64,000 nucleotides of DNA, from contig NC_087381.1 of NCBI RefSeq assembly GCF_963675165.1, forward strand, positions 4,899,378 to 4,963,377, written 5' to 3'. The notes under the pieces were generated by a model. That model saw only the letters and a list, made by a program, of their open reading frames with translations. It was not told where the DNA came from and did no database searches. Source of the DNA: Halichondria panicea. Taxonomy: Eukaryota > Porifera > Demospongiae > Suberitida > Halichondriidae. Position numbers and translations under genes: made by a program. The stretch's first letter is position 1, and the number at the start of each line of letters is the position of its first letter. Positions 14,770-51,978 of the stretch are shown here, piece by piece.

Positions 14770-14828
14770 AGGTTGCCTTTTTAGAGAGTGAAAAATTGGG
14801 CAGCTTATAATTGATCTATACTAGGACA

Positions 14829-15810: not shown

Positions 15811-15897
15811 ATTTTATTGCTGGTGTATACTCGGATGGACTCTCTGTGTATAATATACACATGCAGAGAGTCCATCCAAGTACACCAGCAATAAAAC
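15811..15897. repeat. Hairpin in the lectin 3' region
   Basis: ATTTTATTGCTGGTG at the left is mirrored by CACCAGCAATAAAA at the right, with GGATGGACTCTCTG inside each arm. Arm A of the duplication has only a collapsed single version at about 5664-5706, so the hairpin was gained in B or lost in A. Confidence 0.65.
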
Positions 15898-16179
15898 ATG
15901 TGATTTTAGCTATACATGTATAGGTGTGTTTTAAAAGATTTAGTGCTGTCATATGATCTCTAGCCTCATGTACAGCATGCATGCCGTTTTTAATTGTACA
16001 GCGACGTGTTTTATACCTGGCTACATTCTCAATACAATTGGTTCAACTTTGCATCGCCATAACAAAATAATTTAGTGCTGTCACGTGATCTTCATGCAGC
16101 CAATCAGCTAAAGAAATCTGCTTTATCAATTAAGTGTTACTTTTTTCATGCAATACAAACAAACTATTTATAATTTTAG

Positions 16180-31700: not shown

Positions 31701-34240
31701 TTAATTCAGTACACACATTTTCCTCATTTACGGATATAGCCCTATAAGAGGTATAGAGGTGGTTAACTGTATCAACCGCCACCGACTAGATTGGCACATC
31801 TGTGGTATTATCAGCTTGTGTGTTAATTTAATCTTACTGACAGTAGACAAATAATGTGCATACACTTATAATTGGATGTGATGAATGCAGTATCATAGCA
31901 ACTTATTCACCATGCATGCACACTCTTCACAGGTACTTTAATCTTGTCAGCGACATCTGCACGTCAGTCAACGCCCACTATATGAACGTCAGTGTGTTCA
32001 ATGTGATTGATAGGATTGCCATACGTGCCGTTGATGAGGGCGGGGCTTGTAGGGAGGTGCTCCTCAATGTGGAGGGTATGTGCTCCGTGAGCGTTGACGG
32101 GACATCTGTGGAGTCTAGCTACATGAGGGATGGAATCTCCATTAGAAGGTACATTCGCACATGTACGTACGTGTGTAATGAATACTATTACATTAATTAA
32201 GGCACCTGCTTTTTATACGTTTGAGTGCAAAAATACAAGAATACTGTATGCAAAAATGTTCAGGTGGCGCATAATTAAAAGCGAACTTCATTTTGAAGTG
32301 CCTAGTAATATTATAGCATGTATACATGTACATATATTATAATTATTTCAAGAAACCATTGTGATAATTATCACAATGGTTGAGAGTTGTCTTCTTATGT
32401 GTATTACGTGACTGTACATGTGCTCCTTGTGTATGCAGGTATCCCGGCAACCGAGTAAGGGTATCTGTGCCCAACTGTGCTCACCTCAGTCTGGTGATGT
32501 GGGTGTTCTGTCAGAACAGTACGCTAATGGCTTATGATGCTGACGACAACCCAGTGACGGCGTCGGCAGTCATGATGAAGTTTGTAATAGCTCGAGGATT
32601 CAACTTGCAAGAGAGGTCACATGGACTGATTGGTACGGATAGAATAGTGAAATGATCAATTTATATCCCATGCACTTGTCCAATGAGTGTTTAGCAGGAT
32701 AATTATGAACACCCAGTGAATTATAATTATGCTTGAAGGTACGTATTTACGTACATGTAATTACGTGTGTTTGTATATAATGCCTGCATGCATGTCAGTA
32801 TAGTTAGATCGTTATTATAATTATATACGTATGGGTTTTTAATTTATAGTATCCCTCAGGTGTGTTGGGACACTACAACACATGCATGCATGTACATGTA
32901 CCTCATGCCCATTATCGCCCTTTATTTAGAGACTATAATCTACATGTATTTATTTGATTACCTGTATATTCTAATCGTCTATTTTATTATAATAGCTATA
33001 CAGTAACTGTACCTAATTTAACGTGCGTAACGTACATGTACCTCTATAGGTCAGTTCTGGAACATTCCTATCACTCTTCAACTAGTCAATGATTCGAGCG
33101 AGGGTGGTTTGACCCCTGACCCCTACTACACGGTGATGGTGGCCCATCCTGACTCCGCCCCCAGGACCTTCACCGCGTTCTATTACCCCCGGACCTGGGA
33201 GGTATGCATGTATGCGCATTGTAACACAATTGATCTTCCGAATAAAACGTATGTATGTACAAGCATACCATTAATTTTATGATGTTTTCCCTATTGAGTT
33301 ATTGGTTTGCGTTTTGACAAAAAATTTTAAAGGCCTGAATCTTATTACGTACCTCGATCAGAAGATAATTATAAAAAAACCATCAATAATGAGACAATGT
33401 TTTTGCTAAAAAAGCATTATAGTTGTATGAGTGCATGCTCATTTGGGACCTGGGTGCCTTAATAATGAGTTATAATTGTACTTGTTGCCCAGTGAGTGGG
33501 CAGATCAAAGCAATCCAGTGCTCAGTATATGGCATGTTGCATCACTGCCATGGCTACCATATATTGCACTGCATTATATGGCATTATATGCACTTGCACT
33601 GTGTGTAAATGCAGTAGATTTCTTTAAGAGATATCCATTTGGGACTTATGCCCCACCATTCCACCCAATACTCAGTTGGTCCCTTTTATAGGCTACTACC
33701 TTTACAACTACTAGTGGGAAGAAAACCTAAAAAATTTACTATGGAATTCAGCAAAACTAATGAATACACTAAATTCCTTTAAAACACATGTCTTTTATTA
33801 CGATTTATATGACCAGTCAGACGAGTTTAACGTCATTGGGCAACAAGTTAGTTATTGCAGGCGCCCTCGTGCAACATGCCATATATTGCACTGGATGACA
33901 TAATGCCCTCGGGCATTATATTGCTCCAGTGCAATATATGGCATGTTGCACGAGGGCGCCGGCAATAACTAATACATAAATTGTATTGTATTGACTGTAG
34001 AATTAAACCCTGGGGCTCTCTTTTTTATTGCCGGTATACTACTACAATTTTATACTCTTTTCGTATCTCGTGCAGGTTATTCGTGGTCAGAATGACCCGT
34101 GTCTTTACGCCGGAGGGCAACAAGCTGACAGCACGGACACTAGCAACTCAGTGATCCAGGGGACCTACAGGGACTATGTTGTCAGTGAACCATTTAGCAC
34201 CCAATACCTATATAGCAAGTTTCAGGACGATAGGTGTTAG
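22779..34240 (+). CDS. Secreted Calx-beta protein, aggregation-factor-like (19 exons)
   Basis: Exons: 22779-22880, 23762-23960, 24334-24486, 24991-25131, 25328-25525, 25904-26140, 26504-26713, 27182-27327, 27630-27726, 27901-28191, 28483-28647, 28822-29043, 29204-29344, 29630-29848, 30663-30798, 31933-32148, 32439-32632, 33050-33201, 34076-34240. All are GT-AG with matching phases (mostly phase 1) and total 3384 nt, i.e. 1127 residues. Residues 1-25 are a signal peptide. Residues 35-151 are two Cys-rich modules with CC and CxxC. Residues 152-591 are Calx-beta-like repeats. Residues 592-720 and 721-840 are clear Calx-beta domains (VSEGVGSFELCV, GTA, EIVDND). Residues 841-1127 form a unique C-terminal domain. 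Demosponge aggregation-factor cores combine Calx-beta repeats with a C-terminal 'wreath' domain; I infer this equivalence without an alignment. It would act in the extracellular matrix in cell adhesion. The first exon start is the weakest point. Confidence 0.75.
23098..23735. repeat. Tandem duplication plus inverted tail in intron 1
   Basis: A unit of about 290 bp (23098-23390) is repeated at 23391-23665. Both units have GAAGCAAAAAGTTATGCTTG and a GGT triplet run (longer in unit 1, about 23228-23250). Part of the unit (GTCCAAGTGGTGG / CCTCCACTTGGAC) is then inverted at 23675-23735, directly before exon 2. Confidence 0.8.
24556..24752. mobile_element. MITE in intron 3, ends TACCGTATATAGCGCC
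   Basis: The left end TACCGTATATAGCGCC with ATTTTCGA is mirrored by TTCGAAAATTTGGCGC with TATACGGTA. It is non-coding and probably a TA-target element of the dispersed ACCGTATAGCG family. Confidence 0.6.
29884..30128. mobile_element. 'TATAGCGGGTA' family element in intron 14
   Basis: The left half contains TGTTCGCGGTTTTCGCGGAT. The right half contains its mirrored words and ends CGAAATATACCCGCTATACG. The left terminus is degraded. Confidence 0.55.
31091..31277. mobile_element. 'TATAGCGGGTA' family element in intron 15
   Basis: Begins ACCGTATAGCGTCAG and ends TTTATACCCGCTACACGG, with TGTTCGCGGTTTTCGC inside. Same family as 41129-41343. Confidence 0.6.
31389..31613. mobile_element. MITE in intron 15, ends CCGTACGGGTAGAAAA
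   Basis: Terminal inverted repeats ATACCGTACGGGTAGAAAAT and TTTTCTACCCGTACGGAAT of about 23 bp. The interior contains ATTTCGCG and CGTGGGTG words as in the related family. Confidence 0.7.
33849..33970. mobile_element. 122-bp hairpin element in intron 18
   Basis: AGTTATTGCAGGCGCCCTCG at the left is mirrored to GGCGCCGGCAATAACT at the right, with arms of about 45 bp. The surrounding segment (about 33458-33980) is missing from the equivalent intron of unit 2, so it was gained in unit 1 or lost in unit 2. A partial related sequence lies near 33520-33580. Confidence 0.75.
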
Positions 34241-34246
34241 CTGTAT

Positions 34247-34252
34247 AATAAA
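34247..34252 (+). terminator. Poly(A) signal AATAAA
   Basis: AATAAA a few nt after the stop of the aggregation-factor-like gene. It is conserved in the dead copy at 45294-45299. Its position suggests a very short 3' UTR. Confidence 0.55.
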
Positions 34253-34977
34253 TGCAAGTTAGGTCGCCATAATTATGCTTGTCCAAATTACTAGAATAAG
34301 TATTAATTTTTCTCTTTATAATACATTAATTATGGTGCAAATAATTAGCCATGCTCTTGATTTCTAATCGTGTATGATGAAGTTCTCTGCAGTTTTTATT
34401 AACATTTTTGGCCGCCGCGGTTATTCGAAAACAATACGTTGTCATTGACAGCGTTTACTTGACAGGTAATTGCACGCTGTCAAATGACAACGTGCAATTA
34501 TTGGACCGGATGTGATACGGGATTAATTGCTGTACACTCTCCAGTCACTAAATAGCACATCATACGATTATGAGATTAATATATAGCATGCAGCCATGCA
34601 TGGCCGTAAGAACCAGGGGTGTGGGGGGAAACTTATAGGATCGAGGCAGGGTGTCATACAGGATTTTGAAGTAGAGGGGGGAAATACAAGAAAAGTAACC
34701 AGAAAATTTTGCTAAAAAATGGTCAACTGTTTGTATGTAAAATTGCACACTAGTACTACAGATCAATGCAAAATTAATTTTCGGGAGAGGAAATTGAAGC
34801 TGAAACCCTGGGGGGTCTTGGCTGTAGGTCACATGATCAGCAATAATAAGCAAATTTTCATGTTTTCTGTTCTAATCAGTTGTGATGCATGATTGTATTA
34901 TAAATCATACATGTTAAGATTGTGTGGACTGTAGTACTGGCCAGCCATTCAGCTAGTTATATATAAGTGTCTATATA
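34253..34977. other. Convergent spacer, no gene seen
   Basis: This lies between the stops of the aggregation-factor-like gene (+) and fusion gene copy 1 (-). A small inverted repeat is present near 34428-34500 (GTTGTCATTGACAGC / GCTGTCAAATGACAAC). A GTGTCATACAGG motif links it to the repeat in ABHD2 intron 3. Confidence 0.6.
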
Positions 34978-37900
34978 CTAAACGTGTAATAGTTTGCTAC
35001 AAAAGACACAATAGTCTCCAAGCAAAAATTGGCAAATAGTTCCATACTTAAGCCTAGTAGAACTAGTACCAGTTGCTTTGGTTACCGAGTAGTCAGAAGG
35101 AAGGGAGACGGCAACTAACGACGTATGTACTTTTTTCTTGAACACTTCGGTATCATCATTCAACTCATAGCATTTCTTGACAGTCAGTTCACTGTTGTAC
35201 TTATCAGATCCAAGCACTTCTACTATACTGTTTTTAGACCCATCAATTAGTTTCGAGAAAATATTGGGATTTCTCACTGACTTGTCCAAGGCATATTGGG
35301 AAACCAACATCTTGAGATGTTTGTTTTCTTTCTCGAAACGCATGAAAGACAGGTCAATCTTGGATTTAGACTCGTCACTCCATGCAAGGAAATTTTTCGC
35401 AAGTTTTTCTAAAGATTGGGTGATGATCACGTTCGAGTCCATATAAAAACCACCCCAATTGTACAATACTAGAGCACGGGTGATAAACTTATCCAAATCG
35501 TCATCTAAGAAATCAATTTGGTGGGGTTCAAGAGAGAATATTCTGCTAAATAGCTCATCACGATTGTATTTTGTAACTGTTATCTGGTAGCCAGTTTCTC
35601 TGAAGACATCGAAACGGCCATTATCGAGTGTGTTACTATGAACAAGAACGTTGGCACATGGATGGTAATGGAATACAGATTCGATGGAACGATGATCCTG
35701 CCAAGTAAATTTGAAATCGGGTGATGGGAAGTGAAAGTGAAACTGCAAGCAATCCTTACAAGGAGTTGGAGGGGACAATGGAATTAAACCAAACTTGCGG
35801 GCAGCATCAAACAAAGAAGGTCTTTGACGAATCTCGTACCAAAACGTTGCTCGAAGACGCATCATTGTCGCCACATCGGGATTAGGTGGTGGGTCGTCCC
35901 AGGGAAACTTGGCAAACCACTTAGGTACTTCGTCTATCGTAGTTTTGTACATATCCAAGGTGTGAAACATTGTTGTCAGGCCAACAGTACGAGAGGAGCT
36001 GCCTTTTTTAGAACCACCACCCCCAGGCATTTTATCCGAGTTGATAAAAATCACCGGAGTTCCCATGCCAACGCAGGGTAGAGCACTGTGGATTCGTTGT
36101 GTGATAATCAGTTTAGCTCTTGAATAACGTTCAATTATATCAAAGGCTACAGTAAACCGGCCTTGACTGATTGTACGGGCCTTTCCCTCCAAGTTATGCT
36201 TCACACGGATTCCCCTGTCTCTGATTTTTTTCGGAAGCATTTGAAAATACTCCTCCTTCACATCAACAATAAAAATCTCATTAGTCTTCTTTTTTGATTT
36301 CACTTGGAGCATTAAAGTCATACAACCCGAGAAGTACGCAGGTACATGCAGATCCGTTAACATTTTAAGAGTTCCAGTGTCTCGGCAACCAATCGGTGCC
36401 CTTTCCATCGTATAAGCAACATTTTTCCTCCATTGTGCTGCCATTCGTAGGTGGATATGAATTGAGACCAGTAGAGGGTGGACATTGGGTGGGGGTGGCC
36501 AGCTAGCTCTACCATCTCCCCACCAAGCGTTGAAGAAAACTGTAACGGCTTGATCTTTTTTTGTTGTTGCAATTATGTTATCTCGATCGAGAAAAGTATC
36601 CATAAACGGAAGGAATTGCAGACCGGGGAAATCTTGAATCTCATCACCAACATTCGCTGTCTTTACTGAATTCACTCTCGCATCAAAAAAAAGAGTCCCG
36701 TAATGCTGATTCCATGGTTCGTCCGGTTCCAGTGATAGGAAACGGTACATGAAAACAGTGGTGGCTATAACCAGATCTTCAGCTTCGAAGTACTTGTTTA
36801 CAGTTGGAGCATCGAACGAAATCGAAGTCACTGAATCATAGTTTTCAGAGGGTTTGTAGTATTCATTGTTGAGCATGGTTGCGAGTTGGTTGATGTATGT
36901 GTATTGCTTTGGAAAGCATGCCAGTTTGAAATGTTCTACAGTAGTCTTCGCACGGGCACGGTTCAGTCCAATCCACGGTTTTGTACAACTGGGAATAGGG
37001 ATGTTTTGTTTGTCTTGTAGTTGAACGTTTGGTTCAATGTACACTCCTCCGTACTTCCAGAGAATGCCTAGTCCCACAACTACTTGCAGGTGTTCTTCAA
37101 ATGATGCTTTGGCAAAAAGTTTGTAAAACAGGTGCTTTGAAAGCCATTCTTCAAGAGGTGTTTCTTGAACAAGTTCACCTATTAAAAGAAACTCGGCGGA
37201 AATCTTTTTGTTTGAGAGATCTGCAATGGACTTCATACAGTGTGAAGTACCACAATACACAAGAACAGGATTCCGTTTTGTCAGACTGTTCAAATTTGAT
37301 AAAATTTCTTGCGAGAACGGCCGATCATATACCCAAGCAGAGCGTATTAAATTAGCGACGGCAAGGGGACTCTCAGCAAGAGGAGAAATATTGTTCTCAG
37401 AAACAACGCTTGCAAGATTTGTTGTTGTGATAGTCGAGCCAGTTGAAACAGGTCCTTGTATAAAGAAAATTGACCCCAAACCGACAGCAACCAACACCAA
37501 GAGTAACGGTGGTGGAGAAAACTTATCTCCACTTAAGTTTCGGTAGAGATAGATGTAGAGACCGATGAGGACGGCACCTAATCCGATAATCATTTTCCAG
37601 GAGATAGGGAGTTGAAAGTACGCTAGATTGGCAGCGATGACAATACCACGTTTCAGGAGATTCAAGATGGCGTGTGTTAGTGGAGTGAAATGCTGTAGAA
37701 CATAGATTGAGGCTAAGTTGTAGGTGCAGTGAAAGGAACTTGAGATCACACCTTGGTGTAAGTTTTTCAGGAGAGCAACAGATTGGAAGAAAGCCATTTT
37801 TGAGATAATAAATGGGGTTAAAACAAACACACTGTTTAGCGAAAGAACGGCATACTTTTGAAAAGCACTGTCCCAAACCTTGCCCAATCTCTTCAGATAA

Positions 37901-38469
37901 ATGTTTCTGATCGGGAAAGCGACGTTCGAACAAAGAGCAGCTAAAAGTCCAACCACAAGAAAAGTCGAGTCAAAAGCCACAAACAAACTAGCTCCAACCA
38001 CCATGATGACAATCGCCAAAAGTGTTGTGGAATTGAGGACTGTGTAGTCTCGATAGAGTACCAGAGACAAGCCGAACATGAACAGAGGCTCGCATGCTTT
38101 TACGACTTGCGTCATGCTAGAGCTGACCATTGCATAGGCTGCATTCGTCGCCACGTTCCCGGCAACATTGCCAATCGAAGCTATGAGAATCGTTCTTTTA
38201 GAAGCATCTGCAGGCCATATAGAACTTCTAGAGATTAGCTTTATCCACATAACGGAGACAATAGCACCAATCAGATGTTGTAAAAATGTCAATTCGAGCC
38301 ATCGAAAATCTTTACTTGCATCAGACCAAGAGTTCTTGTCGGGTTTGCTTTGCCCTCTCATAAAGTTTTTCGAAGAGATGGCCGTGATACTGTTGGCAGC
38401 CCACCATATTCCAACCGATATAGCAATAAGAACATTTGCCTTCATCGTTGGTGTAGCCTTTGACTTCAT
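34978..38469 (-). CDS. TPT transporter / sugar transferase / pyruvyl transferase fusion, copy 1
   Basis: One uninterrupted exon encodes 1163 residues. Residues 10-312 form about ten membrane helices of the TPT/SLC35E family, with VKACEP (Lys123) and LLKRG (Lys273-Arg274), positions that bind substrate phosphate in triose-phosphate/PEP translocators. Residues 320-340 are an eleventh helix that would put the rest in the lumen. Residues 400-500 are a Gly_transf_sug (GT32-like) module with GGVYIEPNV in place of the usual GGxYxDxD. Residues about 640-860 match polysaccharide pyruvyl transferase (APIGCRDTGT, YFSGCMTLML, ITQRIHSALP, GTPVIFI). Residues about 930-1090 are a second sugar transferase module with GGFYMDSNV. 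I chose Met at 38469, not 38523: an acceptor (TATACAG) lies just before it, implying a 5'-UTR intron, and copy 2 starts there too. Predicted: Golgi enzyme importing PEP and adding pyruvate ketals to glycans. Substrate unproven. Confidence 0.85.
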   Translation of the reverse strand: MKSKATPTMKANVLIAISVGIWWAANSITAISSKNFMRGQSKPDKNSWSDASKDFRWLELTFLQHLIGAIVSVMWIKLISRSSIWPADASKRTILIASIGNVAGNVATNAAYAMVSSSMTQVVKACEPLFMFGLSLVLYRDYTVLNSTTLLAIVIMVVGASLFVAFDSTFLVVGLLAALCSNVAFPIRNIYLKRLGKVWDSAFQKYAVLSLNSVFVLTPFIISKMAFFQSVALLKNLHQGVISSSFHCTYNLASIYVLQHFTPLTHAILNLLKRGIVIAANLAYFQLPISWKMIIGLGAVLIGLYIYLYRNLSGDKFSPPPLLLVLVAVGLGSIFFIQGPVSTGSTITTTNLASVVSENNISPLAESPLAVANLIRSAWVYDRPFSQEILSNLNSLTKRNPVLVYCGTSHCMKSIADLSNKKISAEFLLIGELVQETPLEEWLSKHLFYKLFAKASFEEHLQVVVGLGILWKYGGVYIEPNVQLQDKQNIPIPSCTKPWIGLNRARAKTTVEHFKLACFPKQYTYINQLATMLNNEYYKPSENYDSVTSISFDAPTVNKYFEAEDLVIATTVFMYRFLSLEPDEPWNQHYGTLFFDARVNSVKTANVGDEIQDFPGLQFLPFMDTFLDRDNIIATTKKDQAVTVFFNAWWGDGRASWPPPPNVHPLLVSIHIHLRMAAQWRKNVAYTMERAPIGCRDTGTLKMLTDLHVPAYFSGCMTLMLQVKSKKKTNEIFIVDVKEEYFQMLPKKIRDRGIRVKHNLEGKARTISQGRFTVAFDIIERYSRAKLIITQRIHSALPCVGMGTPVIFINSDKMPGGGGSKKGSSSRTVGLTTMFHTLDMYKTTIDEVPKWFAKFPWDDPPPNPDVATMMRLRATFWYEIRQRPSLFDAARKFGLIPLSPPTPCKDCLQFHFHFPSPDFKFTWQDHRSIESVFHYHPCANVLVHSNTLDNGRFDVFRETGYQITVTKYNRDELFSRIFSLEPHQIDFLDDDLDKFITRALVLYNWGGFYMDSNVIITQSLEKLAKNFLAWSDESKSKIDLSFMRFEKENKHLKMLVSQYALDKSVRNPNIFSKLIDGSKNSIVEVLGSDKYNSELTVKKCYELNDDTEVFKKKVHTSLVAVSLPSDYSVTKATGTSSTRLKYGTICQFLLGDYCVFCSKLLHV

Positions 38470-39650
38470 ATCCGAGACCTGTATAATAAAAATTAATGTG
38501 CGTACGTGTATGTGTATATGCATGTGTATTAATTGACCCAGCCACCGAAATATTGGTCCAATATCCTGTATACTTTTACCTATATAGGATGGTGACTAAG
38601 TTGAGCAATTAATTAATATATACATGCATGCATGCCCAGAATTGTTGTAGTGATCTCGATCTAAACTCAACATAATTATACATTCGTAGTTTTAATAATT
38701 ATGTAGTAAACTAGGTCTAAGAGACGTAGCTGCACGAGGAATACAGTAAAGCTGATGTACTGTGTGTGCGTGTGTTGTATGAATTCCAGCTGTAACTGCT
38801 CATGAGTCAATGGTTGAAATACGATGAAAACTAACAGCTTCTATATATAACTACATGTAACGCTTCTATATCCACATTCTCTCTTGATATCTTGCCTTAC
38901 AACAACAATGTGAATCACAGGATGATTTTCTACTCTTTCTGTTCCACATGTCCACAATTTCCTATCTGTAAGTAATGCAGGGTGATTCCAGAGCAATTTA
39001 AGTATCGATCGTTTAGGCTGCTGTATACTTTGTCTGGGAAAATCTTTGCTCTATACCGATGTAGTAACATGTAGGAATAGACACAGCTATTTATCTAAGC
39101 TGACTCATATAGTACCATTAAACACCAGGCACTTGGACATTTTCGTAGCTGCATTTTTATTAAAAACTAAACAAATTCCTAAGAATGTACCAGATGTGAT
39201 AACAGACAGCTAAACAAACATTTCCTGGATGAGCATGCCCACAGACCCCCCTAGATTGCCGTGTGCCTGAGTACACGGATATCCGGCTTGCCGCCCCTAT
39301 TTGAAATACGACTTTTGCACCCATGCCCCCCGGTCAATATTTTCTGTACGAAGGCCTGACTGTAAGGTCACAAGTCGGACCACGCCCACTCTAGTTTTAC
39401 AGCATGTTTTATGAAACAGTTCACCAACATGCATAACATAATCATACCATTTTTACCATTTTTCTTTCCGTTATATTAATATCGGCACGGGAACGAGGTT
39501 AAAAATATTACGCTCACCTCAGCCATCGAAGAGTCTGTAATTAGGAGAGGTCTCTGACACGTACAATGTACTATGCTCTACGCTGCATGGTAAGAAAAAT
39601 CAAGCGGGTGATCAAATCTTATCGCAGCAATAATTTAAAACTGTACATAA
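38470..39650. other. Upstream region of fusion gene copy 1
   Basis: Includes a likely 5'-UTR intron acceptor immediately before the start codon. The rest is conserved in unit 2 (about 49531-50683). An open frame seen in unit 2 (50474-50004) is not maintained here, so it is probably not a gene. Confidence 0.55.
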
Positions 39651-40203
39651 TTAAAGCACCGCGGGTGCTGATCGATGCCTCGGTGGAGGTGCTAAAGCTA
39701 CATAACATAAAGCTATAGTAGCTTTATATACACACATTATAATTATCATGATGAACATTTTTGCATTAGCTGCATGCATGCAAAGAGTGGGCAATGATCG
39801 ACCATGATTGTGTTGATCGATGCCAAAAGTTCAAGTCTAAAATTAATGGCTGCATCAGCAGAGCCTTGCAGCTCTTCCCACTCTTGCAGCTACCAATAAC
39901 TAGCATTCTATAGTGCAGAGCTAACTACTAAGTAGAGTAACAACACTCGGTGAACAAGTTTTACTATGTACTCTTCTGAAAAGGCTGCAATGCATGGCAT
40001 TCCAAGTAAGCAACACTTGAAAACAAAGCATTATTTTGCAAATCCATGAATCAAAATCCAACTATAGAAGCCTATAGAAACTCTTGCTTGCATTTGATTG
40101 ATCTTTGAGTAGCTGTAGCAGTCTACACACACAGACACACTAACATACTATATTATATACCGTATACCAGTAACCTCGCTTGTGCATGTGCACCGAGGCA
40201 TAA
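39651..40203. mobile_element. 'CACCGAGGCATA' family element, unit 1 copy
   Basis: Begins AAAGCACCGCGGGTGCTG, contains ATGCCTCGGTGGAGGTGC and TTGCAGCTCTTCC, and ends GTGCACCGAGGCATA. The two ends share an inverted ATGCCTCGGTG / CACCGAGGCAT repeat. The copy at 50684-51236 is its duplicate by descent. Confidence 0.75.
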
Positions 40204-40785
40204 TTAAGAGTCTGTTTCTTATTGCTCACTGCCACAGCTCTTGTTACTTGCAAAGAATGGTTTTGGGAATATTGATATCACATAATAAAATAAGCTGTTA
40301 ATGTACAGTCTCCATTTCAGAAGGTACTATATACATTTTGAGACACTATCATTTTGAGACATGATTGTACCAATTACGGCGGCTAGTTTTACCAGCTTAG
40401 GTTCTAAATTGGGTGCCAAATGAAGCCTTTAAAGCTATACATGTATTTATCCTGCAATTTTAACGTGGCCGTTACTCTAAATGAGGCGCCAGTTGAAGCT
40501 CATGTATTTTTCTCTGTTCTCTTTGTGCAGCAAGGAAATTAATGTTTGTGGAGCCTTAATTACGGTATATGCGATCATGCTACGTCATGCATGTATGTAT
40601 CTCCAGCACAGGAAGTCTAACTAAATTGCCAAGGCAACTCACAGCACAGTGGCTGCATGGCATGAGCATAAATTAATGTCTTGCACCTATAGCTGCACCT
40701 ATAGATGCACCTATTGGCTGGTATGTACTGGTTGAGTTAGCTGCAGAAAACATAATTATTATGAAGAAGCCGCATATACTGTACA

Positions 40786-40985
40786 GTTGGTGAGATCTGG
40801 GGGACAAAATATTCGTGGTTGAAGACTGCATGGACCAGAATACTTTATACCCACGAATGAAGTAACCTTGCTACCTTTACCTGCAGTGCAGCAAGCAGCA
40901 ATCATGGAAACATGCATGTTACTGAAATTAATATTACTCAAACAAATATTTTGCCCCCCCCCCCGAAAATTACCCGCTATACATG
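40786..40985. mobile_element. 'CGGGGGACAAAATATTCG' family element
   Basis: It carries GGGGGACAAAATATTCGTGG at the left and CGAAAATTACCCGCTATA at the right, with a C homopolymer near 40955. The matching element in unit 2 is at about 51810-51978, and collinearity between the units is interrupted exactly at its right end. Confidence 0.6.
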
Positions 40986-41343: not shown

Positions 41344-43823
41344 AGAAAACAAATATTAAACTCTACCTGTCAGTTGAAACTTAGAAGTACATGTAGACAC
41401 AGCATGCATACTCCTGAGAACCTTGACACAACAACTTCAATACCTACCTCCAGAAGCTTCTTTCTCAGCATAGATACCATGTTTCCAGCAAGGAATTTGC
41501 ACTTAGATCTAGTCTATAGTTGAACATGACATCACATCCTGGGGTCCACAACTAACATCAGCTTGCAGGAGTGTACTCCTGCTAGCTCCTATAGTTTCCT
41601 TAAGCCCTATAGGGGAGATAGTCTGACTAATAGTTTCTTTGTTCTCAAATTTAAAAAAATAGACAATGCTAAAACTTGGCTAGCTATTATCTCTATACTC
41701 TTGTGCAGATTAGTGAGATTTGAAAGAGTTGAAAGATGTTTAGATCTACTTGTATATAATTATCAAAATTTAAGTAAGCCGTTGCCTACTTAAAAACGAC
41801 AAAGGTCAAGTATTACCAATTTCACTTCCTCTATGAGTATTATAGTTTCGCGAACGCAACGTTTTCCTATAGAGGGAACGTCTGGTCACTATTGTATTTA
41901 TTCCGTGGTCCTTGCCGGAATGTTAGCAGTGCCAATCAAATTTAACTACCATACTACATGCTTAGTGGCGGAAATACGAGTTCGCTGTTTTCGTGGGTTA
42001 GCAATCCTACATTCCTAAAATTGTTCTTATTATCTGTTATCTGCTATAGCGTGCAAAGATAAAGGCGTGGCCTGGGGATGTCTGGTAAGCAGTCATCAGG
42101 GCTGCATCCAGTCAGGGGGGCAAATTAGGCAAATGAAAAGTATAGGGAGGGAAAAACCTCCGACGCGAAGGCATGCACCAAGCATGTACCATAAAACTAG
42201 GGGGCATGCTCTCGTTGGATATTAATTTGGAGGCTTAGATCACTTCTGGCGCAATTTCAGCTCATATATGTAGCTATCAATGTGACATTACATGCATGAT
42301 TGTTGGAAATTGTAGTGTTAGGTACGCAGAATAGCTGTTTAAAACTACTGACTATACCTACCTCAGCTTCTATATGTCTGTGTCCATCCTATAATTGTCA
42401 AAATTAAATCCCAGGGGGGGCGAAATATACCCCCCTCACCCCCCCCTCAATGCAGCCCTGGACTCATGACACCTAGTAAACAATTTATTCAACAAAATGC
42501 TTTTAAGAGGCCATGCATTCACGAAATTTAAGTGCCTCGAAAATGTTGCACTACACAAAATGAACGTGAAAAAAAGGAAAATAATTATTGACTCTATAAA
42601 AATTAATGTTGTACCATACCGGGCTGCAAAGGAACAAAGAGCTCAAACCCAAGCAAGAGCTAAACGAATATCTTGCACGTAGCTACATTAATTCCTTAGT
42701 GCAACAGAATCAGTGCAATAGTGACCAGACGTTCACTCCCCCTCTAACGTCTGCTCGCGAGACTACTCTGTGAGGTGGAGTCATGTGTCATGTTTAATTA
42801 GTAAGAGTAATTCTGCACTTCCAAGTACAAATGTACAAGTTTACAGTGAAAACTAGACAAACGACTTTGGGGACCAAACTGGAGTTTAATTAATGTACGC
42901 ATATACACTGTACATGTACCACTAGTCTAAGATAGATATACACCTGTAAATGAACCAACTACACAATCATGCATATCCTGAATCATACTGAAGCACTCAC
43001 CCTCAGTCTTAAATGTTCTGGTAGTACGTACGTGCAGTCAATGACTCCTTTGTACAGCTCATCAGAGAGACGGCCTGCGCGCTGATGTGTTAGTAATTCA
43101 CTGCGGGTTTGATGCAAGCTGTGGATATAGTGTAGGACCCATTCTAGGGCCGTGTCTGATGCTGTTGCTTGATGATAATGAATTGATTATGAAGTGTGCC
43201 ATGTTTTGAAACAGTTGTTGTGTTTGGGGATCCTAAATGTAATACGATCGCTAAATGCGATTGTGTTTGCAGTGATAATTTTGGTGTCATTCTCATTTGC
43301 TCATTGGAGATCAGTATGCATAGAGCTTGCAACAATTGACATAGAAAGTACTAAGATATCGTTAATGTCATAATGTAATCACCACTCTCTTCAATAATAA
43401 CAATCGAAGCATCCCGTTTAATCACACTAAGAAGTTCCCTAAAATGTCAAATTAGTTTATTGATGGATGGATTCTGTTTATATGAAACTATATGTTTGAA
43501 TATTCTATGGCCGTATATGATAATATTCTTCTGTTTTTCACATGATAATCAAGAAGCGTGCCGTGTTTGTGGCAGTTGTGTATCGAAGCACCCCATACAC
43601 GGCATGCTGTATCTGTATCTTTACAAGTCAGCCATGCAGTCATGTTACTCATGTACATGTATATAGATTGATGGTATGAGATAATTGCTAGCAAATAATT
43701 TATGATTTTGTAGATAGTCGTGTGTTAATGGTTATTTGTTAGTGACCTTACTGATAGTATTCACAGTTGTACCCTCTATGGCAACTAACTCTAATTGCAC
43801 GATCTGTTGGTATGAATGAAGTA
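41344..43823. other. Non-genic end of unit 1 and junction
   Basis: 41344-41980 is unique to unit 1. 41980-42560, 42570-42935 and 42935-43080 are shared with separated blocks in unit 2 (52640-53250, 54328-54646, 57711-57836). 43080-43823 is the junction spacer. It holds a degenerate direct repeat with AAGTGTGCCATGTTT / AAGCGTGCCGTGTTT (about 43190 and 43553). I recognise no gene here. Confidence 0.6.
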
Positions 43824-45287
43824 CCCAACTGTGCTCACCTCAGTCTGGTGATGTGGGTGTTCTGTCAGAACAGTACGCTAATGGCTTATGATGCTGACGA
43901 CAACCCAGTGACGGTCATGATGAAGTTTGTAATAGCTCGGGGATTCAACTTGCAAGAGAGGTCACATGGACTGATTGGTACGGATAGAATAGTGAAACGG
44001 TATAAACTCCATGCAATTTATACATGTATCCCATGCACTTGTCCAATGAGTGTTTAGCAGGATAATTATAAACACCCAGTGAATTATAATTATGCTTGAA
44101 GGTACGTATTTACGTACATGTAATTACGTGTGTTTTTGCTATGCCTGCATGCATGTCAGTATAGTTAGATCGTTATTATATATAATTATATACGTATGGG
44201 TTTTTAATTTATAGTATCCCTCAGGTGTGTTGGGACACTACAACACATGCATGCATGTACATGTACCTCATGCCCATTATCGCCCTTTATTTAGAGACTA
44301 TAATCTACATGTATTTATTTGATTACCTGTATATTCTAATCGTCTATTTTATTATAATAGCTATACAGTAACTGTACCTAATTTAACGTGCGTAACGTAC
44401 ATGTACCTCTATAGGTCAGTTCTGGAACATTCCTATCACTCTTCAACTAGTCAATGATTCGAGCGAGGGTGGTTTGACCCCTGACCCCTACTACACGGTG
44501 ATGGTGGCCCATCCTGACTCCGCCCCCAGGACCTTCACCGCGATCTATTACCCCCGGACCTGGGAGGTATGCATGTATGCGCATTGTAACACAATTGATC
44601 TTCCGAATAAAACGTATATGCATGTACAAGCATACCATTAATTTTATGATGTTTTCCCTATTGAGTTATTGGTTTGTTAGAGGCTCAGCATACCTCATGT
44701 ATAGAGGTGTCTTCCTACATGTATTCAATATACATGTGAACACATCAAGTAGAAATGGAATATTTTGTGCACCCCCTCCCCCCCAAAATTGATAACCTAA
44801 ACATTTTTACAAACTTTTTAAAGGCCTGAATCTTATTACGTACCTCGATCAGAAGATAATTATAAAAAAAAACCATCAATAATGAGATAATGTTTTTGCT
44901 AAAAAAGCATTATAGTTGTATGAGTGCGTGCTCATTTGGGACCTGGGTGCCTTAATAATGAGTTATAATTATATCAGATGGCCTTTCTTCATGGGCTAGC
45001 TGATTCTACCATAGTACGGTACATAAATTGTATTATATTGACTGTAGAATTAAACCCTGAGGCTCTCTTTTTCATTGCCAGTATACTACTACAATTTTAT
45101 ACTCTTTTCGTATCTTGTGCAGGTTATTCGTGGTCAGAATGACCCGTGTCTTTACGCCGGAGGGCAACAAGCTGACAGCACGGACACCAGCAACTCAGTG
45201 ATCCAGGGGACCTACAGGGACTATGTTGTCAGTGAACCATTTAGCACCCAATACCTATATAGCAAGTTTCAGGACGATAGGTGTTAG
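43824..45287 (+). pseudogene. 3' fragment of the aggregation-factor-like gene
   Basis: Exon equivalents: about 43824-43990 (exon 17, lacking its 5' end and acceptor), 44417-44566 (exon 18) and 45123-45287 (exon 19, protein identical). It has an in-frame 9-nt deletion (loss of Ala-Ser-Ala before Val-Met-Met) and a Phe-to-Ile change in TAFYYP. There is no upstream gene body, so it is a dead fragment unless joined to another promoter. The stop and AATAAA (45294-45299) are intact. Confidence 0.85.
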
Positions 45288-46041
45288 CCGTATAATAAAT
45301 GCAAGCTAGGTCGCCATAATTATGCTTGTCCAAATTACTAGAATAAGTATTAATTTTTCTCTTTATAATACATTATAATTAATTACGGTGCAAATAATTA
45401 GCCATGCTCTTGATTTCTAATCGTTGACGGAAGTTCTCTGTAGTTTTTATTAACATTTTTGGCCGCGGCGGTTGTTCGAAAACAATACGTTGTCATTGAC
45501 AGCGTTTACTTGACAGGTAATTGACAATGTGCAATTACTGGACCGGATGTGATACGGGATTAATTGCCGTACACTCTCCAGTCACTAATAGTACATCATA
45601 CAATTATGATATAGTATGCAGCCATGCATGGCCATAAGAACCAGGGGTGTGGGGGGAAACTTATAGGAGCCAGGGTGTCATACAAGATTTTGAAGTAGAG
45701 GGGGAAATAAGAAAAGTAACCAGAAATGTTTGCTATAGTCAACTATTATTTCAATACCCTGTTAGTTGTATGTAAAATTGCGTACTATACACGAATGCAA
45801 AATTAATTTTAGGGAGGGGAAATTGGAGCTGACACCCTGCATTGGGGGTCTTGGCTGTGGGTCACATGATCAGCAATAATAATTTTTGCAATAATAATTT
45901 TTGCAAATTTTCATGTTTTCTGTTCTAATCAGTTGTGATACATGATTGTATTATAAATCATACATGTTAAGATTGTGTGGACTGTATACAGTACGTGGCC
46001 AGCCATTCAGCTAGTTATATATAAGTGTCTATAATTATATA

Positions 46042-49000
46042 CTAAACGTGTAATAGTTTGCTACAAAAGACACAATAGTCTCCAAGCAAAAATTGGCAAA
46101 TAGTTCCATACTTAAGCCTAGTAGAACTAGTACCAGTTGCTTTGGTTACCGAGTAGTCAGAAGGAAGGGAGACGGCAACTAACGACGTATGTACTTTTTT
46201 CTTGAACACTTCGGTATCATCATTCAACTCATAGCATTTCTTGACAGTCAGTTCACTGTTGTACTTATCAGATCCAAGCACTTCTACTATACTGTTTTTA
46301 GACCCATCAATTAGTTTCGAGAAAATATTGGGATTTCTCACTGACTTGTCCAAGGCATATTGGGAAACCAACATCTTGAGATGTTTGTTTTCTTTCTCGA
46401 AACGCATGAAAGACAGGTCAATCTTGGATTTAGACTCGTCACTCCATGCAAGGAAATTTTTCGCAAGTTTTTCTAAAGATTGGGTGATGATCACGTTCGA
46501 GTCCATATAAAAACCACCCCAATTGTACAATACTAGAGCACGGGTGATAAACTTATCCAAATCATCATCTAAGAAATCAATTTGGTGGGGTTCAAGAGAG
46601 AATATTCTGCTAAATAGCTCATCACGATTGTATTTTGTCACTGTTATCTGGTAGCCAGCTTCTCTGAAGACATCGAAACGGCCATTATCGAGTGTGTTAC
46701 TATGAACAAGAACGTTGGCACATGGATGGTAATGGAATACAGATTCGATGGAACGATGATCCTGCCAAGTAAATTTGAAATCGGGTGATGGGAAGTGAAA
46801 GTGAAACTGCAAGCGATCCTTACAAGGAGTTGGAGGGGACAATGGAATTAAACCAAACTTGCGGGCAGCATCAAACAAAGAAGGTCTTTGACGAATCTCG
46901 TACCAAAACGTTGCTCGAAGACGCATCATTGTCGCCACATCGGGATTAGGTGGTGGGTCGTCCCAGGGAAACTTGGCAAACCACTTAGGTACTTCGTCTA
47001 TCGTAGTTTTGTACATATCCAAGGTGTGAAACATTGTTGTCAGGCCAACAGTACGAGAGGAGCTGCCTTTTTTAGAACCACCACCCCCAGGCATTTTATC
47101 CGAGTTGATAAAAATCACCGGAGTTCCCATGCCAACGCAGGGTAGAGCACTGTGGATTCGTTGTGTGATAACCAGTTTAGCTCTTGAATAACGTTCAATT
47201 ATATCAAAGGCTACAGTAAACCGGCCTTGACTGATTGTACGGGCCTTTCCCTCCAAATCATGCTTCACACGGATTCCCCTGTCTCTGATTTTTTTCGGAA
47301 GCATTTGAAAATACTCCTCCTTCACATCAGCAATAAAAATCTCATTAGTCTTCTTTGATTTCACTTGGAGCATTATGGTCATACAACCCGAGAAGTACGC
47401 AGGTACATGCAGATCCGTTAACATTTTAAGAGTTCCAGTGTCTCGGCAACCAATCGGTGCCCTTTCCATCGTATAAGCAACATTTTTCCTCCACTGTGGT
47501 GCCATTGGTGGGTCGATATGAATTGAGACCAGTAGAGGGTGGACATTGGATGGGGGTGGCCAGCTAGCTCTACCATCTCCCCACCAAGCGTTGAAGAAAA
47601 CTGTAACGGCTTGATCTTTTTTTGTTGTTGCAATTAATTTATCTCGATCGAGAAAAGTATCCATAAACGGAAGGAATTGCAGACCGGGGAAATCTTGAAT
47701 CTCATCACCAACATTCGCTGTCCATACTGCATTCACTCTCGCATAAAAAAAAAGAGTCCCGTAATGCTGATTCCATGGTTCGTCCGGTTCCAGTGATAGG
47801 AAACGGTACATGAAAACAGTGGTGGCTATAACCAGATCTTCAGCTTTGAAGTACTTGTTTACAGTTTGAGCATCGAACGAAATCGAAGTCACTGAATCAT
47901 AGTTTTCAGAGGGTTTGTAGTATTCATTGTTGAGCATGGTTGCGAGTTGGTTGATGTACGTGTATTGCTTTGGAAAGCATGCCAGTTTGAAATGTTCTAC
48001 AGTAGCCTTCGCACGGGCACGGTTCAGTCCAATCCACGGTTTCGTACAACTGGGAATAGGGACGTTTTGTTTGTCTTGTAGTTGAACGTTTGGTTCAATG
48101 TACACTCCTCCGTACTTCCAGAGAATGCCTAGTCCCACAACTACTTGCAGGTGTTCTTCAAATGATGCTTTGGCAAGAAGTTTGTAAAACAGGTGCTTTG
48201 AAAGCCATTCTTCGAGAGGTGTTTCTTGAACAAGTTCACCTATTAAAAGAAACTCGGCGGAAATCTTTTTGTTTGAGAGATCTGCAATGGACTTCATACA
48301 GTGTGAAGTACCACAATACATAAGAACAGGATTCCGTTTTGTCAGACTGTTCAAATTTGATAAAATTTCCTGCGAAAACGGCCGATCATATACCCAAGCA
48401 GAGCGTATTAAATTAGCGACGGCAAGGGGACTCTCAGCAAGAGGAGAATTATTGTTCTCAGAAACAACGCTTGCAAGATTTGTTGTTGTGATAGTCGAGC
48501 CAGTTGAAACAGGTCCTTGTATAAAGAAAATTGACCCCAAACCGACAGCAACCAACACCAAGAGTAACGGTGGTGGAGAAAACTTATCTCCTCTTAAGTT
48601 TCGGTAGAGATAGATGTAGAGACCGATGAGGACGGCACCTAATCCGATAATCATTTTCCAGGAGATAGGGAGTTGAAAGTACACTAGATTGGCAGCGATG
48701 ACAATACCACGTTTCAGGAGATTCAAGATGGCGTGTGTTAGTGGAGTGAAATGCTGTAGAACGTAGATTGAGGCTAAGTTGTAGGTGCAGTGAAAAGAAC
48801 TTGAGATCACACCTTGGTGTAAGTTTTTCAAGAGAGCAACAGATTGGAAGAAAGCCATTTTTGAGATAATAAATGGGGTTAAAACAAACACACTGTTTAG
48901 CGAAAGAACGGCATACTTTTGAAAAGCACTGTCCCAAACCTTGCCCAATCTCTTCAGGTAAATGTTTCTAATCGGGAAAGCAACGTTCGAACAAAGAGCA

Positions 49001-49530
49001 GCTAAAAGTCCAACCACGAGAAAAGTCGAGTCAAAAGCCACAAACAAACTAGCTCCAACCACCATGATGACAATCGCCAAAAGTGTTGTGGAATTGAGCA
49101 CTGTGTAGTCTCGATAGAGTACCAGAGACAAGCCGAACATAAACAGAGGCTCGCATGCTTTTACGACTTGCGTCATGCTAGAGCTGACCATTGCATAGGC
49201 TGCATTCGTCGCCACGTTCCCGGCAACATTGCCAATCGAAGCTATGAGAATCGTTCTTTTAGAAGCATCTGCAGGCCATATAGAACTTCTAGAGATTAGC
49301 TTTATCCACATAACGGATACAACAGCACCAATCAGATGTTGTAAAAATGTCAATTCGAGCCATCGAAAATCTTTACTTGCATCAGACCAAGAGTTCTTGT
49401 CGGGTTTGCTTTGCCCTCTCATAAAGTTTTTCGAAGAGATGGCTGTGATACTGTTGGCAGCCCACCATATTCCAACCGATATAGCAATAAGAACATTTGC
49501 CTTCATCGTTGGTGTAGCCGTTGACTTCAT
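46042..49530 (-). CDS. TPT transporter / sugar transferase / pyruvyl transferase fusion, copy 2
   Basis: Intact 1162-residue single-exon paralogue of 34978-38469, with the same start codon and upstream acceptor. It differs from copy 1 by roughly two dozen substitutions and loss of one Lys in a Lys run near residue 727. Most changes are in the glycosyl/pyruvyl half (Phe452Leu, Glu562Lys, Asp596Tyr, Lys603Trp, Cys907Arg). The transporter half is almost unchanged (Ala293Val). All motifs listed for copy 1 are kept, including GGVYIEPNV and GGFYMDSNV. The two open frames have survived since the duplication, so both are probably functional, although the event may be too recent to tell. Confidence 0.85.
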   Translation of the reverse strand: MKSTATPTMKANVLIAISVGIWWAANSITAISSKNFMRGQSKPDKNSWSDASKDFRWLELTFLQHLIGAVVSVMWIKLISRSSIWPADASKRTILIASIGNVAGNVATNAAYAMVSSSMTQVVKACEPLFMFGLSLVLYRDYTVLNSTTLLAIVIMVVGASLFVAFDSTFLVVGLLAALCSNVAFPIRNIYLKRLGKVWDSAFQKYAVLSLNSVFVLTPFIISKMAFFQSVALLKNLHQGVISSSFHCTYNLASIYVLQHFTPLTHAILNLLKRGIVIAANLVYFQLPISWKMIIGLGAVLIGLYIYLYRNLRGDKFSPPPLLLVLVAVGLGSIFFIQGPVSTGSTITTTNLASVVSENNNSPLAESPLAVANLIRSAWVYDRPFSQEILSNLNSLTKRNPVLMYCGTSHCMKSIADLSNKKISAEFLLIGELVQETPLEEWLSKHLFYKLLAKASFEEHLQVVVGLGILWKYGGVYIEPNVQLQDKQNVPIPSCTKPWIGLNRARAKATVEHFKLACFPKQYTYINQLATMLNNEYYKPSENYDSVTSISFDAQTVNKYFKAEDLVIATTVFMYRFLSLEPDEPWNQHYGTLFFYARVNAVWTANVGDEIQDFPGLQFLPFMDTFLDRDKLIATTKKDQAVTVFFNAWWGDGRASWPPPSNVHPLLVSIHIDPPMAPQWRKNVAYTMERAPIGCRDTGTLKMLTDLHVPAYFSGCMTIMLQVKSKKTNEIFIADVKEEYFQMLPKKIRDRGIRVKHDLEGKARTISQGRFTVAFDIIERYSRAKLVITQRIHSALPCVGMGTPVIFINSDKMPGGGGSKKGSSSRTVGLTTMFHTLDMYKTTIDEVPKWFAKFPWDDPPPNPDVATMMRLRATFWYEIRQRPSLFDAARKFGLIPLSPPTPCKDRLQFHFHFPSPDFKFTWQDHRSIESVFHYHPCANVLVHSNTLDNGRFDVFREAGYQITVTKYNRDELFSRIFSLEPHQIDFLDDDLDKFITRALVLYNWGGFYMDSNVIITQSLEKLAKNFLAWSDESKSKIDLSFMRFEKENKHLKMLVSQYALDKSVRNPNIFSKLIDGSKNSIVEVLGSDKYNSELTVKKCYELNDDTEVFKKKVHTSLVAVSLPSDYSVTKATGTSSTRLKYGTICQFLLGDYCVFCSKLLHV

Positions 49531-49562
49531 ATCCGAGACCTGTATAAAAAATGAAAATGCGT

Positions 49563-49569
49563 ACGTGTA

Positions 49570-49606
<37 letters not shown>
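49563..49606. repeat. (GTATGT)n microsatellite upstream of fusion copy 2
   Basis: A hexamer array GTGTAT repeated about six times. The unit 1 equivalent (38500-38528) has a much shorter array. It lies in the putative 5'-UTR intron. Confidence 0.8.
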
Positions 49607-50683
49607 TAATTGACCCAGCCATCGAAATATTGGTCCAATATATCCTGTATACTTTTACCCGTAGGATGGTGACTAAGTTGAGCAATACATGCATGCATGC
49701 CCAGAATTTCTAAACTCAACATAATTATACATTCATAGTTTTAATACTTATTATGTAGTAAACTAAGTCTAAGAGGCGTAGCTGCACGAGGAATACAGTA
49801 AAGCTGATGTACTGCATGTGTGTGCGTGTGTTGTATGAATTCCAGCTGTAACTGCTCATGAGTCAATGGTTGAAATACGATGAAAACTAACAGCTTCTAT
49901 ATAACTACATGTAACGCTTCTATATCCACATTCTCTCTTGATATCTTGCCTTACAACAACAATGTGCATCACAGGATAATTTTCTACTCTTTCTGTTCCA
50001 ATGTCATGTCCACAATTTCCTATCTGTAAGTAATGCAGGGTGATTCCAGAGCAATTTAAGTATCCATCGTTCAGGCTGCTGTATATACTTTGTCTGGGAA
50101 AAGCTTTGCTCTATAGCTACTGATGTAGTAACATGCAGGAATAGACACAGCCATTTAAGCACCAGGAACTTGGACATTTTCATAGCTGCATTTTTTATGT
50201 GAAAAACTCTACAACTTAAATTCCTAAGAATGTACCAGATGCGATAACATACAGCTAAACAAACATTTCCAGGATGAGCATGCCCACAGACCCCCCTAGA
50301 TTGCCGCGTGCCTAAGTACACGGATATCCGGCTTGCCGCCCTTATTTGAAATGCGACTTTTGCAACCATGCTCCCCCCCCAGTCAATATTTTCTGTACAA
50401 AGGCCTGGCCGTAATAAGTCGGACCACTCCCACTCTAGTTTTACAGCATGTTTTATGAAACAGTTCACCAACATAACTTAATTATATGATTTTTACCAAT
50501 TTTTTGTTCCGTTATCGGCACGGGAACGAGGTTAAAAATATTATGCTCACCTCAGAGTCTGTAGTTAGGAGAGGTCTCTGACACGTACAATGTACTGTGC
50601 TCTACGCTGCATGGTAAGAAAAATCAAGCGGGGTGATTAAAGGACTATTTTACCGCAGCAATAATTTAGAACTGTACATAATG

Positions 50684-51236
50684 AAAGCACCGCGGGTGCT
50701 GATCGATGCCTCGGTGGAGGTGCTAAAGCTACATAACATAAAGCTATATAGTATAGCTTTATATACACACATTATAATTATCATGATGAACATTTTTGCA
50801 TTAATTAAATGCTGCATGCAAAGAGTGGGCAATGATCGACCATGATTGTGTTGATCGATGCCAAAAGTTCAAGTCTAAAATGAATGGCTGCATCAGCAGA
50901 GCCTTGCAGCTCTCTTCCCACTCTTGCAGCTACCAATAGCTAGCATTCTATAGTGCAGAGCTAACTACTAAGTAGAGTAACAACACTCTGTGAACAAGTT
51001 TTACTACGCACTCTTCTGAAAAGGCTGCAATGCATGGCATTCCAAGCAAGCAAAACTTGAAAACAAAGCATTATTTTGCAAATCCACAAATCGAAATCCA
51101 AGAAAACATGACTATAGAAACTCGTACTTGCACTTGATTGATCTTTGAGTAGCTGTAGCAGTCTACACACACAGACACACTAACATATTACCGTATACCA
51201 TGCAGTAACCTCGCTTGTGCATGCGCACCGAGGCAT
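50684..51236. mobile_element. 'CACCGAGGCATA' family element, unit 2 copy
   Basis: Equivalent by descent to 39651-40203, with ends GAAAGCACCGCGGGTGC and GCGCACCGAGGCATA. It retains the uninterrupted TACTTGCACTTGATTG site (about 51124) that is broken by nested elements in the 54.65-kb member. Confidence 0.75.
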
Positions 51237-51978
51237 AATTAAGAGTCTGTTTCTTATTGCTCACTGCCACAGCTCTTGTTACTTGCAAAAAATGGTAAGG
51301 GAATATTGATATCACATAATAAGCTGTTAATGTACAGTCTCCATTTCTTAAAGAAGGTACTACATTTTGAGATATGACCATTTTGAGACATGATTGTAAT
51401 AAACATCTAATTACGGCGTCTAATTTTACCAGATTAGGTTCTAGCCAAATGAAGCCTTTAAAGTATTTATCCTGCAATTTTAACGTGGCCGTTACTCTAA
51501 ATGAGGTGCCAGTTGAGGCTCATGTATTTTTCTCCGCTCTCTTTGTGCAGCAAGGAAATTAATGTTTGTGGAGCTTTAAATACGGTATATACGGTCATGC
51601 TAAGTCATGCATGTATATCTCCGGCACAGGAAGTTAACTAGATTGCCAAGGCAACTCACAGCACAGTGGCTGCATGGTATGAGCATAAATTAATGTCTTG
51701 CATGCACCTATGGCTGCACCTATATAGATGCACCTATAGGCTGGTACTGGTTGAGTTAGCTGCAGAAAACATAATTATTATGAAGAAGCTGCATATACTG
51801 TACAGCTGGTAATTTCCGGGGGACAAAATATTCGTGGTTGAAGACCGGACTAGAATACTTTATACCCACGAATGAAGTAACCTTGCTACCTTTACCTTCA
51901 GTGCAGTGCAAGCAGCAATAATGGAAACATGCATGTTACTGACTCAAACAAATATTTACCCCCCCCCCCCCCGAAAAT

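Follow-up and report, generated by a model that had tools for sequence, protein, structure and literature searches.

The fusion gene and its copies

We describe here a gene of the sponge Halichondria panicea, found in a 64-kb window (the whole stretch of DNA that was analysed). In one coding exon it joins a transporter of the TPT family to a pyruvyl transferase, together with two modules resembling glycosyltransferases, the first of them weakly. This joined architecture is real and constrained. The window holds two copies, A and B, in a tandem duplication, with the following features (module positions are those of copy A):

34978..38469, minus strand: fusion gene copy A, a single coding exon of 1163 codons plus stop
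46042..49530, minus strand: fusion gene copy B, tandem duplicate, 1162 codons plus stop
33973..40925, no strand: left member of the tandem duplication, carrying copy A, 92.9% identical to 45020-51942
45020..51942, no strand: right member of the tandem duplication, 92.9% identical to 33973-40925
38470..38485, minus strand: TATACAG, then GTCTCGGAT, then ATG, just 5' of the start codon and the same in all three copies known in the genome
37549..38424, minus strand: TPT transporter domain, residues 16-307, with putative phosphate-site residues K124, K273 and R274 (Pfam and alignment to 5y78)
37450..37515, minus strand: extra (eleventh) hydrophobic helix, residues 319-340 (hydropathy scan; the ten preceding helices are family knowledge)
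36670..37437, minus strand: first glycosyltransferase-like module (weak), residues 345-600, with GGVYIEPN in place of GGxYxDxD
35830..36669, minus strand: pyruvyl transferase module, residues about 601-880, with D609, R696, R792, H794 and K813 (Pfam, alignment and predicted fold)
34981..35829, minus strand: C-terminal Gly_transf_sug (GT32-like) module, residues 881-1163, with GGFYMDSN in place of GGxYxDxD

The original prediction, made from the letters of this DNA, had reported an unbroken frame of 1163 codons, present twice. This is borne out, as copy A translates into 1163 amino acids without an internal stop and copy B into 1162. They are the only frames of at least 250 amino acids in the window, counted from ATG, GTG or TTG to the stop. 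A third copy, intact, free of stops and 93% identical, lies on contig C1 of the same genome (131.5 Mb, 39 contigs), giving three intact fusion frames of 1149-1163 codons. A chance frame or an assembly artefact was rejected as an explanation, since this third copy exists on another contig. The prediction of a TPT transporter and a pyruvyl transferase in a single polypeptide also holds, with both domains over their Pfam cut-offs and joined in all three frames.

Beyond the coding sequence and approximately 100 bases 5' of it, the C1 copy has little in common with the window. A broken pyruvyl transferase remnant with stops lies near it (C1:8702152-8702656), and another remnant, of 29 residues, is found on contig C8 (C8:414133-414219).

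In terms of the start codon, an alternative in-frame ATG at 38523 would extend copy A to 1181 codons. This is probably not the start, because the other two copies have no in-frame ATG upstream and all three share the acceptor-like sequence 5' of the ATG at 38469. The stretch formed by TATACAG and the bases after it looks like a splice acceptor closing an intron in the 5' untranslated region.

Coding constraint

The coding signal spans the entire frame, far beyond chance. Copies A and B differ by 49 substitutions over 3489 aligned coding bases (1.4%), with one gap of 3 bases, whereas three flanking stretches of the duplication diverge by 5.0, 5.8 and 5.4%, with 93, 122 and 88 gap columns (303 in total). 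All gaps within the coding alignment of the three copies are whole codons. Over 1149 codons, the ratio of nonsynonymous to synonymous substitution rates (dN/dS) is 0.37 for copy A with copy B; compared with the C1 copy, the two give 0.33 and 0.34. From these three lines (low coding divergence relative to the flanks, whole-codon gaps and dN/dS), purifying selection looks to be acting over the full length of the fusion gene.

The most constrained module is TPT, with a dN/dS of 0.05 between the window copies and 0.17 and 0.19 against C1. Against the same copy, the linker gives 0.47, the first glycosyltransferase-like module 0.29 and 0.30, the pyruvyl transferase module 0.48 and 0.50, and the C-terminal module 0.28 and 0.29 (range 0.26-0.29). 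Codon use of the four modules has no clear outlier that could date a transfer, the TPT part being the least like the rest.

Transporter part and topology

The assignment of the N-terminal part to its transporter family is strong. In Pfam, TPT (PF03151) matches residues 16-307 at 1.9e-30, with 106.7 bits against a cut-off of 30, and covers positions 4-290 of the 291 in the profile. EamA is also above its cut-off in the fusion protein. A sequence search of the PDB with the TPT part finds the triose-phosphate translocator 5y78 (2e-17, 253 residues aligned). In this alignment, K124 of the window protein (in TQVVK) is opposite a Lys of 5y78, and the pair K273-R274 (in LLKR) is opposite a Lys-Arg pair. 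For the plastid translocator, K204, K362 and R363 are reported to hold the phosphate (PMC9010763). We take K124 and K273-R274 for the putative phosphate-holding residues of helix 4 and helix 9. That this part carries PEP (phosphoenolpyruvate) may fairly be inferred.

Transporters of the TPT family are built of ten helices, with both ends of the chain in the cytosol. The hydropathy scan resolves not all ten, and past the TPT domain it finds an additional hydrophobic helix at residues 319-337, where the original prediction had placed an eleventh at 320-340. Ten helices with cytosolic ends followed by one more would leave residues 341-1163 on the luminal side. The loop before the extra helix has two basic residues and one acidic, a charge that weakly favours a luminal catalytic part.

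Pyruvyl transferase module

The family assignment of this module is also strong. The pyruvyl transferase expected from the original prediction is detected by profile search, with PS_pyruv_trans (PF04230) matching residues 683-812 at 8e-10, above the cut-off; the first part of the profile is unmatched. The two window proteins reach 39.5 and 40.2 bits (cut-off 25.3), and of the 280 profile positions they match 115-279 and 110-279. In the sponge's own genome, the same profile matches in the three fusion frames only.

Relatives were collected outside the sponge. A tblastn search of the plasmids set returned a protein of Sphingobium, 28% identical (2e-19), and a search with a four-row alignment gave 49 loci in genome_contigs and 7 in viral_contigs. 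Together with L001 and L002, these form a set of 58 loci. The working alignment (A2, 45 rows) contains the three sponge copies and 42 of the 58, which are prokaryotic and viral-contig relatives. Sixteen were left out on grounds that include near-duplicate, cut-off and short sequences: L005, L009, L020, L022, L025, L032, L039, L041, L042, L047, L050, L051, L054, L056, L057 and L058.

Across this alignment, D609 and R696 are present in 45/45 rows, and H794 in all 44 rows with a letter at that position (one row is cut off). R792 is common to the three sponge copies. An Asp, two Arg and a His are indicated as critical in Pvg1p and CsaB by docking and by mutants (PMC4872226, PMC10435577). By motif, we take D609, R696, R792 and H794 for the putative counterparts of these donor-site residues.

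Three module searches of the PDB by sequence gave no match, and the four-row profile found there only a weak match to 5ax7 (Pvg1p), at the RxH stretch (E 0.67). Structure prediction was run on a 38-row alignment (A7), with 36 of the 42 relative rows and the two window rows. In the AlphaFold model, the pyruvyl transferase part mostly has a predicted local distance difference test (pLDDT) value of 70-96. In a Foldseek search, Pvg1p 5ax7, with its GT-B-like fold, comes second and third (E 7.8e-5 and 9.2e-5, probability 1.00), behind an uncharacterized Klebsiella protein, 6x1l.

Glycosyltransferase-like modules

All the Pfam families expected from the original prediction (TPT/EamA, Gly_transf_sug and PS_pyruv_trans) were found, but Gly_transf_sug is over its cut-off in the C-terminal module only. 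There, it matches residues 927-1024 at 9e-8, with 33.2 bits in the whole protein and 25.8 in the module alone (cut-off 23). The first module (345-600) fails, with E 0.12 and 13.5 bits against the same cut-off. The proposal of two sugar transferase modules thus stands for the C-terminal one. For the first there is modest support, its scores of 4.8 bits with the C-terminal family profile and 3.0 bits with that of bacterial Caps_synth being equalled by 7/2000 shuffles each. Profile-profile comparison gives the first module a probability of 1.3 against Caps_synth and 3.8 against the C-terminal module, values that do not count as evidence; the C-terminal module itself reaches 69 against Caps_synth. 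Modelled alone from two rows, the first module has an uninformative pLDDT of 36, and in the larger model it is mostly below 50.

Both modules have a degenerate DXD motif in all three fusion copies, EPN in the first and DSN in the C-terminal one. The genome has Gly_transf_sug in five places, namely the three fusions and two stand-alone frames on contig C1. Both stand-alone paralogs keep DTD (GGIYMDTD):

L073:4485-5417, contig C1: stand-alone relative of the C-terminal module, intact DTD
L074:5846-6565, contig C1: stand-alone relative of the C-terminal module, intact DTD

The two frames have 27% and 26% identity to the C-terminal module; one of them ends early, and the match of the other runs through to the final residues. 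Judged by eye, the L073 frame has a helix like a membrane anchor at its start. Two weak relatives of the C-terminal module are present in viral_contigs. The first module is probably a decayed relative of glycosyltransferases, and both modules are probably inactive as sugar transferases.

Relatives and origin

In the tree of the 45 rows, the sponge copies sit on a long branch (1.47) inside a set of 28 rows (98/92). Pfam assigns Caps_synth to 8/45 rows and Gly_transf_sug to 11/45. We take the eight Caps_synth rows to be L001, for which Pfam shows the domain, and L016, L018, L027, L028, L029, L046 and L048, which align with L001 over the Caps_synth part; L014 was removed from that alignment, as its N-terminal reading looked wrong. 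These eight fused rows fall in the other set of the tree.

We considered whether the sponge gene took a bacterial glycosyltransferase-pyruvyltransferase fusion as a block. This was rejected, as grouping the sponge copies with the fused rows gives p 0.0003 in the approximately unbiased (AU) test, for a clade chosen by architecture after the tree was seen. No Caps_synth match was found in either window protein at E 1. Given the tree and the AU test, the order of glycosyltransferase before pyruvyl transferase probably has more than one origin, provided that the first sponge module is a glycosyltransferase in the first place.

Horizontal gain comes into question, given how the pyruvyl transferase subfamily is spread in bacteria and that this genome has it nowhere else; a gain from bacteria is possible. 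Two of the closest relatives, both of them Bacteroidota, lie in exopolysaccharide operons, with a flippase-like gene before and a GT4-like gene after. P0001 had no relative in viral_contigs, genome_contigs or phages, the TPT part had none in viral_contigs, and a PHROGs search was without a match. As for the bacterial fusion itself, 47 phage records, 45 of them from Synechococcus, match the Sphingobium fusion protein; the matches listed (20 of the 47) are at approximately 40% over its Caps_synth part, residues 4-167.

Comparison with known systems

In the Golgi of fission yeast, Pet1p and Pet2p bring in PEP for Pvg1p (PMC4872226). The likeness lies in the entry of PEP into the Golgi for a PS_pyruv_trans enzyme, which is proposed for the sponge, and in the predicted fold of the sponge module, which matches Pvg1p. 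The yeast proteins are, however, separate, whereas in the sponge a single chain holds transporter and transferase as well as one or two additional glycosyltransferase-like modules. Cryptosporidium is another eukaryote with the enzyme, having two annotated polysaccharide pyruvyl transferases, cgd7_2583 and cgd6_1450 (PMC6877471). Here the likeness is by annotation only, and the passage that names them mentions no fused transporter.

Among bacteria, fusions of Caps_synth with PS_pyruv_trans, such as WP_285833803.1 of Sphingobium sp. V4, likewise place a glycosyltransferase module directly before the pyruvyl transferase. This protein differs in having no transporter by Pfam and in ending after the pyruvyl transferase, and the sponge enzyme falls outside its clade. 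The stand-alone enzymes of Bacteroidota (Sphingobacterium L003, Mucilaginibacter L007) have the motifs NxGD, IGCRD and TxRxH as in the sponge. L003 is the best tblastn match, and both are, with L004 (on a contig labelled Nanohaloarchaea), the three nearest by tree path. Unlike the long-branched sponge protein, L003 and L007 have the length of a single domain and stand beside flippase-like and GT4-like genes.

For the transporter, the plastid triose-phosphate/phosphate translocator (5y78) has the family and the phosphate-site residues in common with the sponge part. It has no fused enzyme, is aligned over 253 residues, and the sponge protein stays under the TIGR00817 cut-off.

Pyruvylated glycans are reported from sponges generally (PMC6994554). 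In Microciona, 4,6-pyruvylated galactose is part of the adhesion glycans, and pyruvylated galactose on a sponge adhesion proteoglycan was published as early as 1993 (PMC7828597, PMC6801904). No pyruvyl transferase of a sponge or other animal was found named in the open-access literature, subscription journals and protein databases lying outside this search. On transporter-glycosyltransferase fusions, titles and abstract beginnings in the open-access literature gave nothing on point.

Surroundings in the window and the genome

The fusion copies adjoin a gene of many short exons with Calx-beta domains (24755-33300, plus strand), which we take to be of the kind known from sponge aggregation factors. 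In Pfam, Calx-beta is over the cut-off at 28692-29162 and 29578-29883, and under it at 26494-26721. With the duplication, the stretch 32467-33477 recurs at 43821-44970, and we guess it to be this gene's 3' part. Calx-beta is strongly expanded in the genome, with at least 151 matches on contigs C1, C2, C5, C9 and C15 and tandem arrays, for example at C2:270-278 kb. A link between the fusion gene and aggregation-factor genes was considered and is not claimed; among the matches listed, the Calx-beta nearest to the C1 copy is approximately 740 kb off.

Elsewhere in the window, an AbfB (arabinofuranosidase B) domain is found at 16134-16640 on the plus strand (Pfam, 2.7e-14), and an exon resembling alpha/beta hydrolases at 19754-20020 on the minus strand, under the Pfam cut-off. 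An inverted duplication relates 5351-7426 to 14113-16210, in pieces that are 87-95% identical.

On contig C2, three silicatein-like active-site exons lie within 11 kb (C2:656915-667884), one of them on the opposite strand. They encode CGASYAF peptides in a papain-type active-site setting with Ser for Cys, which is presumably the silicatein hallmark. These exons, with the abundance of Calx-beta, fit a demosponge genome.

Proposed function and alternatives

We lean slightly towards reading this constrained gene as one for a secretory-pathway protein that imports PEP and pyruvylates glycans. The product would be a multi-pass protein of the secretory pathway, presumably of the Golgi. Its N-terminal TPT transporter would bring PEP in from the cytosol, and the extra helix would send the remainder of the chain into the lumen. 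There, like Pvg1p in the Golgi of fission yeast, the pyruvyl transferase would use PEP as donor and attach pyruvate to glycans as ketals. The two glycosyltransferase-like modules, having lost the usual DXD motif, are more likely to serve in acceptor binding or scaffolding than as active sugar transferases. That the fusion couples PEP supply to pyruvylation, and makes the pyruvylated galactose of sponge adhesion glycans, is a more tentative proposal, which we would sooner doubt than accept.

Several observations weigh against this picture. In terms of topology, the supposed luminal part has no N-glycosylation sequon in copies A and B, and two in the C1 copy. Within the pyruvyl transferase, R792 is found in 28/44 rows of the relatives' alignment, with another residue in 16/44, and K813 of the sponge copies is aligned as Lys in just 4/45. 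The Foldseek TM-scores to 5ax7 are low (0.28/0.41), probably in part through the disordered first module of the model. Between the window copies, this part also has a dN/dS of approximately 1.45 on few changes (14/297 residues), so one of the copies may be relaxed or adapting. As for the transporter, the match to TIGR00817 (phosphate/PEP translocator) reaches 81.1 bits, far under the cut-off of 317.9. Furthermore, a TPT gene on contig C4, which we take to be SLC35E1-like, likewise has the Lys-Arg pair. As this gene of the same genome has it too, the pair cannot single out PEP. A more distant TPT gene on C15 has Lys-Ala at the presumed equivalent position.

These last points bear directly on what is carried. 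The TPT part could move another substrate, be it triose phosphate, a sugar phosphate or, to serve the flanking modules, a nucleotide sugar, with PEP arriving through a separate transporter. The weak TIGR00817 score and the shared Lys-Arg pair would suit this, as would the presence of one or two glycosyltransferase-like modules on the same chain. The plastid translocator's trio of Lys and Lys-Arg is retained, however, which fits a substrate with a single phosphate, and the usual DXD is absent from both modules that would use a nucleotide sugar. We consider another substrate unlikely, though a serious contender. Transporter folds retained as anchors have precedents, and the TPT part could be a mere membrane anchor or localisation module without transport, the protein then being a Golgi pyruvyl transferase. 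This is improbable, as TPT is the most constrained module, well below the 0.28-0.50 of the other three against C1, and its phosphate-site residues are kept.

The opposite view would be a full glycan-building machine, in which both glycosyltransferase modules are active with unusual metal-binding motifs and add the acceptor sugar, which the pyruvyl transferase then caps. The likeness of the C-terminal module to the stand-alone frames, its purifying selection and the bacterial clade joining Caps_synth to a pyruvyl transferase speak for it. We give this view little credence, since EPN and DSN replace DXD in every fusion copy while both stand-alone paralogs retain DTD. Finally, the copies could be functionless retro-copies or decaying duplicates. 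A single coding exon next to a gene of many short exons could suggest so, as could a C1 copy that shares little but its coding sequence with the window and has a broken remnant nearby. With three long intact frames, in-frame indels only, an overall dN/dS of approximately 0.33 and flanks that are far more diverged, we regard this as very improbable.

Returning to the reading of a secretory-pathway protein that would import PEP and pyruvylate glycans, the gene is a concrete candidate enzyme for the pyruvylation of sponge glycans, and the question of how this modification is made becomes directly testable. If true, the sponge would have a transporter physically joined, in the secretory pathway, to the enzyme that uses its cargo, which would bear on how donor supply limits the capping of glycans.

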